From Chloroflexota bacterium (GTDB lineage Bacteria > Chloroflexota > UBA11872 > VXOZ01): a DNA stretch of 64,000 nt. A program made the translations under genes and the position numbers. The notes below the pieces were generated by a model, which saw only the letters and a program-made list of their open reading frames with translations, searched no databases and was not told the DNA's origin. The first letter of the stretch is position 1. Every line of letters starts with the position of its first letter. Below are positions 3,601 to 47,131 of the stretch, piece by piece. Where the stretch lies: the NCBI GenBank assembly GCA_958295775.1, contig CATQHC010000009.1, positions 1-64,000 on the forward strand, in the 5' to 3' direction.

Positions 3601-3632
3601 AGCGGCGCAGGTTGCAAACCCGCGCTACCGGA
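3601..3632. repeat. Dispersed palindrome, GCGCAGGTTNNAACCTGCGC family, copy 1
   Basis: An imperfect palindrome around GCGCAGGTTGCAAACC followed by GCGCTACCGG. Related copies lie at 31548-31574, 35575-35603, 47103-47131 and 59430-59460. It is just upstream of the decarboxylase gene. Confidence 0.65.
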
Positions 3633-31413: not shown

Positions 31414-31547
31414 ATTTGGCAACCATTGATTGGCGTCAGCGCAAGCAATATCTTGCCCTGCCATTTCAATCGAAGGCAAAGAATACTCGGTGATGGCTCT
31501 TTCCTCTTCTGTCTCCAAAGTACGCAATCTGTGCAATCTCGTTCAGA

Positions 31548-31618
31548 CGCAGGTTACAAACCTGCGCTACCGGAGGTAACAGCACTTTGATCTGTAGTGC
31601 GGGTCTTGTCCCCCGCTG
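31548..31618. repeat. Palindromic repeat pair upstream of the cysteine hydrolase
   Basis: A palindrome at 31548-31566 with a CTACCGGA tail is of the same family as 3601. It is followed at about 31594-31618 by a second repeat resembling GGCGGGGGACAAG at 3470. The same two families are also adjacent at 3470-3632, so the pair may travel as one unit. Confidence 0.55.
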
Positions 31619-35402: not shown

Positions 35403-35502
35403 TCATGGTTTGAGGTTGCCCGTACCGAGCCTACCAAAGTGCTCACTACCAACGGACATCCAGCAGAATACGATAGTCAAGCAATCAGAAGGGTGAGCAA
35501 CC

Positions 35503-35868
35503 ATGCCCCGACTGCTAAACTTCTTCATCGATCCCCACATGATTCTGCGACGCGATGAAGCCCTGAACGACCAGTCCGGTAGCGCAGGTTTGCAACCTGC
35601 GCCCGCCAGGGAGATGGAAGTCCACGTCGCCGGTCTCGCGTGCACGAGCATATGAGCGCGGCGTACGCAGGAGGGCCTTGCGTCACTCGCGAACGTCCAG
35701 GAAGTCAGCTTCAATCCAGATGGCGATACGTTCACGGTCCGCTACCACGGTGACGAATTGGATCTCGTGAGGGTCAATGAAGCGATACATGGAAAAGTGA
35801 TCGCACGGCCGCTGCGCAGGCTACTGGATTGGATCAGCCGCCCTTTCCGGCGTGGCTCGAACTCTTGA
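35503..35868 (+). CDS. HMA-like metal-binding protein with in-frame UGA (candidate selenoprotein)
   Basis: One frame runs from ATG 35503 (GAAGGGTGAG upstream) to TGA 35866-35868 through an internal TGA at 35653-35655 (codon 51). After it comes ARRTQEGLASLANVQEVSFN, then DTFTVRYHGDELDLVRVN, an HMA-like strand-helix-strand pattern. The segment VHVAGLACTSI just before the stop resembles the HMA metal loop, and UGA sits where a second Cys is expected, though at C-x3 spacing where canonical HMA is C-x2-C. A hairpin follows 9 nt after the UGA. Residues 25-35 are encoded by a palindromic repeat. The product is 121 residues if UGA is read as selenocysteine; otherwise this is a nonsense-mutated gene. 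No sel genes are in the window. Confidence 0.55.
35575..35603. repeat. Dispersed palindrome GGTAGCGCAGGTTTGCAACC, copy inside a coding frame
   Basis: Identical over 29 bp to the copy at 47103-47131. It is read in frame as SGSAGLQPAP in the N-terminal part of the HMA-like ORF. Confidence 0.85.
35665..35683 (+). promoter_or_regulatory. SECIS-like hairpin downstream of the in-frame UGA
   Basis: ACGCAGG (35665-35671) pairs with CCTTGCGT (35676-35683), giving seven base pairs with one bulged U and the loop AGGG. The loop begins 16 nt after the UGA, in the position range of bacterial selenocysteine insertion elements, and has G in its second position. In the E. coli fdhF element the bulged U is on the 5' side, here on the 3' side. 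Confidence 0.35.
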
Positions 35869-47102: not shown

Positions 47103-47131
47103 TCCGGTAGCGCAGGTTTGCAACCTGCGCC
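47103..47131. repeat. Dispersed palindrome GGTAGCGCAGGTTTGCAACC
   Basis: Identical over 29 bp to the copy at 35575-35603, which lies inside a coding frame; this copy is intergenic. Confidence 0.85.

Follow-up and report, generated by a model that had tools for sequence, protein, structure and literature searches.

The window, a 64,000-nucleotide stretch of a Chloroflexota contig, carries on its forward strand a small gene (35503-35868) whose frame contains an internal TGA. Translation from the ATG at 35503 runs for 50 codons to this TGA (codon 51, 35653-35655); beyond it the frame stays open for 70 sense codons until a second TGA at 35866-35868 ends the gene. With UGA51 read as a predicted selenocysteine (Sec), on the strength of the frame, its orthologues and the purifying selection described below, the product has 121 residues; standard annotation would end it at UGA51. 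A possible ribosome-binding site (AAGGG, 35489-35493, forward strand), proposed from the sequence, lies 9 nt before the ATG, and purine-rich stretches are found upstream of the ATG in most orthologues. The codon for Cys47 (TGC, 35641-35643), the first ligand of the metal loop and invariant in the family alignment (A2), precedes the TGA by four codons, giving the motif C-x3-U.

The TGA is spanned by a heavy-metal-associated (HMA) domain (PF00403, 35620-35793, forward strand), most of which is encoded 3' of it. With Cys placed at the TGA, hmmscan scores this domain at 28.0 bits, above the 24.8-bit cutoff; on the raw frame with its one in-frame TGA, in a search of the organism's own genome, the score is 23.6 bits. 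An earlier note had claimed that the frame continues through the TGA for 70 codons as an HMA-type protein, and both the frame and the Pfam match bear this out. The AlphaFold2 model of the protein is of moderate confidence (mean pLDDT 67, pTM 0.53) and places two strands, a helix, two further strands and a long C-terminal helix in that order. In Foldseek comparisons the model matched MerP (1osd) and CopZ (6ff2), each with a TM-score by target of 0.77, an rmsd of 1.5 Å and a probability of 1.00, at E values that never reach 0.001. The sequence profile likewise aligns with the HMA domains of CopA, CopZ and MerP, and its Sec column corresponds to their second Cys. The window protein has C-x3-U in place of the canonical C-x2-C metal motif.

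The same note had made its proposal depend on the presence of a selenocysteine pathway, and we found one complete in the genome that the window comes from. SelA (571 bits), SelB (359 bits) and SelD (377 bits) all score above curated cutoffs, and a tRNA-Sec with a UCA anticodon scores 67 bits, above the Rfam cutoff. The selD gene (G000:C9:447099-448028, L109) itself has an in-frame TGA at the active-site position (CAG-U-AGK), as do all 14 other Chloroflexota selD genes examined (L116-L129), and SelD is therefore itself a predicted selenoprotein. A hairpin is present in the selD genes of the genus, its loop lying at about +33.

We found the in-frame TGA to be conserved at the codon-51 column in all seven close homologues of the window protein (43-78% identical), of which five belong to the same genus and G016 and G020 to a different family of the class. 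Each of the five same-genus homologues (61-77% identity) has a single TGA at the same codon, within the motif GLACTSI-U-A/V-RR, and the two from the other family read GLVCETI-U-AQR. Counting the window genome, the TGA thus occupies the same column in eight genomes of two families. Downstream of the TGA, pairwise comparisons within the genus gave pS values of 0.28-0.66, pN values of 0.07-0.24 and dN/dS of 0.13-0.43, similar to the low values upstream of it, and both sides of the codon are under purifying selection. Reinitiation at the overlapping ATGA (35652) was considered separately and rejected: the ATG is out of frame, and the orthologues in G016 and G020 read ATC TGA.

Starting 9 nt after the UGA is a putative SECIS hairpin (35665-35683, forward strand; ACGCAGG-AGGG-CC-U-TGCGT), with its loop 16 nt after the UGA. 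The earlier description of this element, 7 bp with an AGGG loop, a bulged U on the 3' side and a 9-nt spacing, was accurate, but the case for it as a SECIS signal proved weaker than its geometry. The loop and the position of the bulged U are invariant in six genus members, and 92.9% of cells over the hairpin are paired; the pairing is broken in two members (G001, G002) and intact in four. Across these six, no pair showed a compensatory change, and when the four intact members were recoded synonymously, 10-30% of the recodings folded as well as the native sequence, so that the genus hairpin alone is not beyond chance. Synonymous codon identity peaks over codons 54-62, at 0.82 compared with a gene average of 0.61 (nominal p 0.015, for an interval picked after the hairpin had been seen). 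The orthologues in G016 and G020 have a different, strong hairpin, which no more than 2% of recodings equal. For the window, a SECIS element is no more than plausible.

The 5' part of the gene also contains a copy of a palindromic repeat (35582-35602, forward strand), which is read in frame as a stretch of the linker SAGLQPAP; the copy is present in the genus and absent in G016 and G020. With up to three mismatches, the repeat (GCGCAGGTTTGCAACCTGCGC) occurs at four sites in the window (3605-3625, 31547-31567, 35582-35602 and 47110-47130) against a chance expectation of 0.01. In one genome (G004) its centre is found in the opposite orientation, giving SAGCKPAP. Two genus members have a partial copy of the gene just upstream of the gene itself (about 8000-8090 of L054 in G003; 1-92 of L052 in G005), which begins at the palindromic repeat, extends through RELEVHVAGLAC and then diverges, as might result from a partial duplication or an assembly artefact.

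A search of 393 genomes of another class extended the comparison to 48 relatives. Members of the family share an N-terminal segment, the metal loop and a C-terminal basic helix, with 10 invariant columns in alignment A2, and matches to the family profile cover their full length. By these sequence features and by the tree described below, the window protein belongs to a Chloroflexota family of small standalone HMA-fold proteins that seems not to have been named before. The metal loop is C-x2-C in 34 of the relatives, C-x3-C in seven (G349, G284, G296, G562, G494, G579 and G415), predicted C-x2-U in six and altered to Gly in one. The C-x2-U group consists of five members of one family (f131; GMVCD-V/I-U) and G476 (GLLCRLU). 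In three C-x3-C relatives (G349, G284, G296) the Cys falls exactly on the UGA column. The extra loop residue is accordingly a real feature of the family, since C-x3-C homologues carry it too. These comparisons agree with the earlier note, which had placed the UGA where a second metal-loop Cys is expected, four residues after Cys47, in a loop one residue longer than C-x2-C: aligned homologues have UGA or Cys at the codon-51 column, save for a Gly in G523. In that protein (L141; CDAVG) Gly replaces the second Cys, and its metal loop may therefore have been lost or altered. Among genomes with a Cys form, selA and selD gave no match at the thresholds used in G296 and G349, and both were matched in G284 and in the C-x2-C genomes G377 and G382.

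In a tree of the family the C-x3-U sequences form one clade (98/88), and the C-x2-U sequences of f131 form a separate clade (98/86) adjoining C-x2-C sequences. At least two changes between Cys and Sec are needed, and Cys and predicted Sec would have been exchanged at least twice on this tree. Forcing all Sec sequences together was weakly rejected (p-AU 0.03), on an alignment with few columns and some long branches, which limit the count and direction of the switches.

Gene order in the relatives points to a possible partner. Directly downstream on the same strand, 45 of the 48 relatives from the other class have nfo, encoding endonuclease IV (L130-L190). Three relatives depart from this order: in G576 the sequence ends just past the gene, and G415 and G476 cluster on the tree with the window's clade (90/92). 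The identity of nfo rests on PF01261 in the reference protein and on a TIGR00587 match above cutoff at the G461 copy. Beside the window gene or those of its clade nfo is absent; in the window genome it lies on the same contig, about 365 kb from the gene. The conserved order in the window's genus is a hydrolase gene upstream and a methionine-synthase/UroD-like gene downstream, named by reading their sequences. No metal-handling or selenium gene adjoins the window gene in the genus neighbourhood, which is thus uninformative as to function. A search of a plasmid collection gave no match, and our literature search for an HMA-nfo operon returned nothing relevant and no paper on the pairing of the two genes.

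How UGA51 is read can be judged from these data. Were it a genuine stop, or a mutation that disables the gene, the locus would be a pseudogene or would yield the 50-residue product alone. The palindromic repeat inside the frame and a genus hairpin that is statistically unexceptional would suit such a reading, but the TGA stands at the same codon in eight genomes of two families, homologues have Cys in its place, purifying selection persists past it and the downstream half carries most of the HMA domain. Neither a decaying gene nor a real stop fits a conserved TGA column with low downstream dN/dS; these two observations rule out a pseudogene, and termination at UGA51 as a whole is extremely improbable. 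Readthrough that inserts a residue other than Sec, such as Trp or Cys, through a suppressor tRNA or leaky termination, would be expected to conserve the frame in the same way, and Sec incorporation here is a prediction. Against it stand the tRNA-Sec (UCA) and the complete set of sel genes, the exchange of Cys with UGA, which is the standard signature of Sec, and the use of TGA as an ordinary stop by this gene and other open reading frames in the window; we regard it as very improbable. Judged from sequence comparison, UGA51 is almost certainly decoded as Sec.

What the Sec residue does is less certain. The protein could be a redox selenoprotein, its C-x3-U pair forming a selenenylsulfide for sensing or reducing oxidants or working as a thiol-disulfide exchanger on an HMA scaffold, rather than one that transfers metal. 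Known Sec residues are mostly found in redox sites (PMC9312934, PMC13188914), canonical metal binding uses C-x2-C rather than the C-x3-C/U spacing seen here, and a DNA-repair gene next to the relatives would fit a role in oxidative stress as well. Set against this are the HMA fold and the position of the pair in its metal loop, the metal-type C-x2-C kept in 34 of the 48 other-class relatives and the naming of known HMA-type selenoproteins as proteins that bind or transport metal. A redox function of this kind is therefore possible but unlikely.

We favour a small standalone HMA-fold selenoprotein with a C-x3-U clamp for soft metals, and give this statement as a whole a probability of about 0.6. 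According to this model, UGA51 would be decoded by the organism's own SelA, SelB, SelD and tRNA-Sec. Cys47, just before helix 1, and Sec51, in its first turn, would together form the clamp on the HMA metal loop. The clamp's most likely cargo would be an ion of a soft metal or metalloid, of the Cu(I), Hg(II) or Zn/Cd class, to be delivered or sequestered, and the selenol would hold it more tightly, or exchange it faster, than a thiol could. Because C-x3-U departs from the canonical C-x2-C, metal affinity is not to be assumed; we infer from fold and loop position that the protein probably has a metal-binding role.

Endonuclease IV is a metal-dependent DNA-repair enzyme, and metal supply to it, or protection of its metal, is therefore a reasonable candidate for the ancestral role of the family. 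The near-constant pairing with nfo in the relatives hints that the handling of metal or redox state may be connected with DNA repair. As a tentative extension, the HMA-fold family might serve endonuclease IV, either as a supplier or guardian of the enzyme's metal site or as a sensor of redox state on its behalf, with at least two Sec/Cys exchanges at the second metal-loop position (C-x3-U, C-x2-U) along the way. If true, this would describe a metallochaperone-like partner of a base-excision-repair enzyme, tuned by selenium chemistry in some lineages.

Comparison with known systems places the window protein close to, but apart from, several Sec-bearing metal proteins. The CopZ, MerP and CopA HMA domains (NF033795, TIGR02052, PF00403) have the same fold, and their two metal Cys residues correspond to Cys47 and Sec51; the window protein differs in having Sec for the second Cys, one extra loop residue, an extra N-terminal segment and a long basic C-terminal helix. 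Against NCBIfam it falls under all cutoffs and matches no selenoprotein model. The UxxU metal-binding (seleno)protein (NF041115 UxxU_metal_bind), the 'putative mercuric reductase' of reviews, is also a small HMA-type domain with Sec in its metal motif. Its motif is U-x2-U in contrast to C-x3-U, and the window protein gives no match to it at E values up to 10; the C-x2-U and Cys relatives match it weakly, far under its 95-bit cutoff. In MerT_CopZ_Se (NF045683), a MerT/CopZ fusion-like heavy metal transport selenoprotein, an HMA (CopZ-like) part again belongs to a selenoprotein, and the relatives match this part weakly. There it is fused to a MerT-type membrane transporter, whereas the window protein is standalone and has no match to the model. 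Cation-transporting P-type ATPases (TIGR01525/COG2217, described in reviews) likewise have Sec in a metal-transport protein of the HMA-bearing kind, but there the listed motif is U-x2-C, Sec comes first in it, and the protein is a large membrane ATPase. Further Sec-bearing metal proteins are listed in reviews (PMC13188914, PMC9312934, PMC2398784). CxxxU is absent from the motifs in PMC13188914. A 'mercuric transport protein MerP' Sec family also appears in PMC2398784, where it stands without a motif. Our search for an HMA selenoprotein from Chloroflexi or sponge symbionts returned nothing relevant in the literature, and the window protein was not found in the selenoprotein papers searched. HMA-type selenoproteins are thus already known in the UxxU and MerT/CopZ fusion forms, to which the predicted C-x3-U protein would be an addition; its family offers a natural series, C-x2-C, C-x3-C, C-x3-U and C-x2-U, for probing the part played by selenium in a metal-binding fold.
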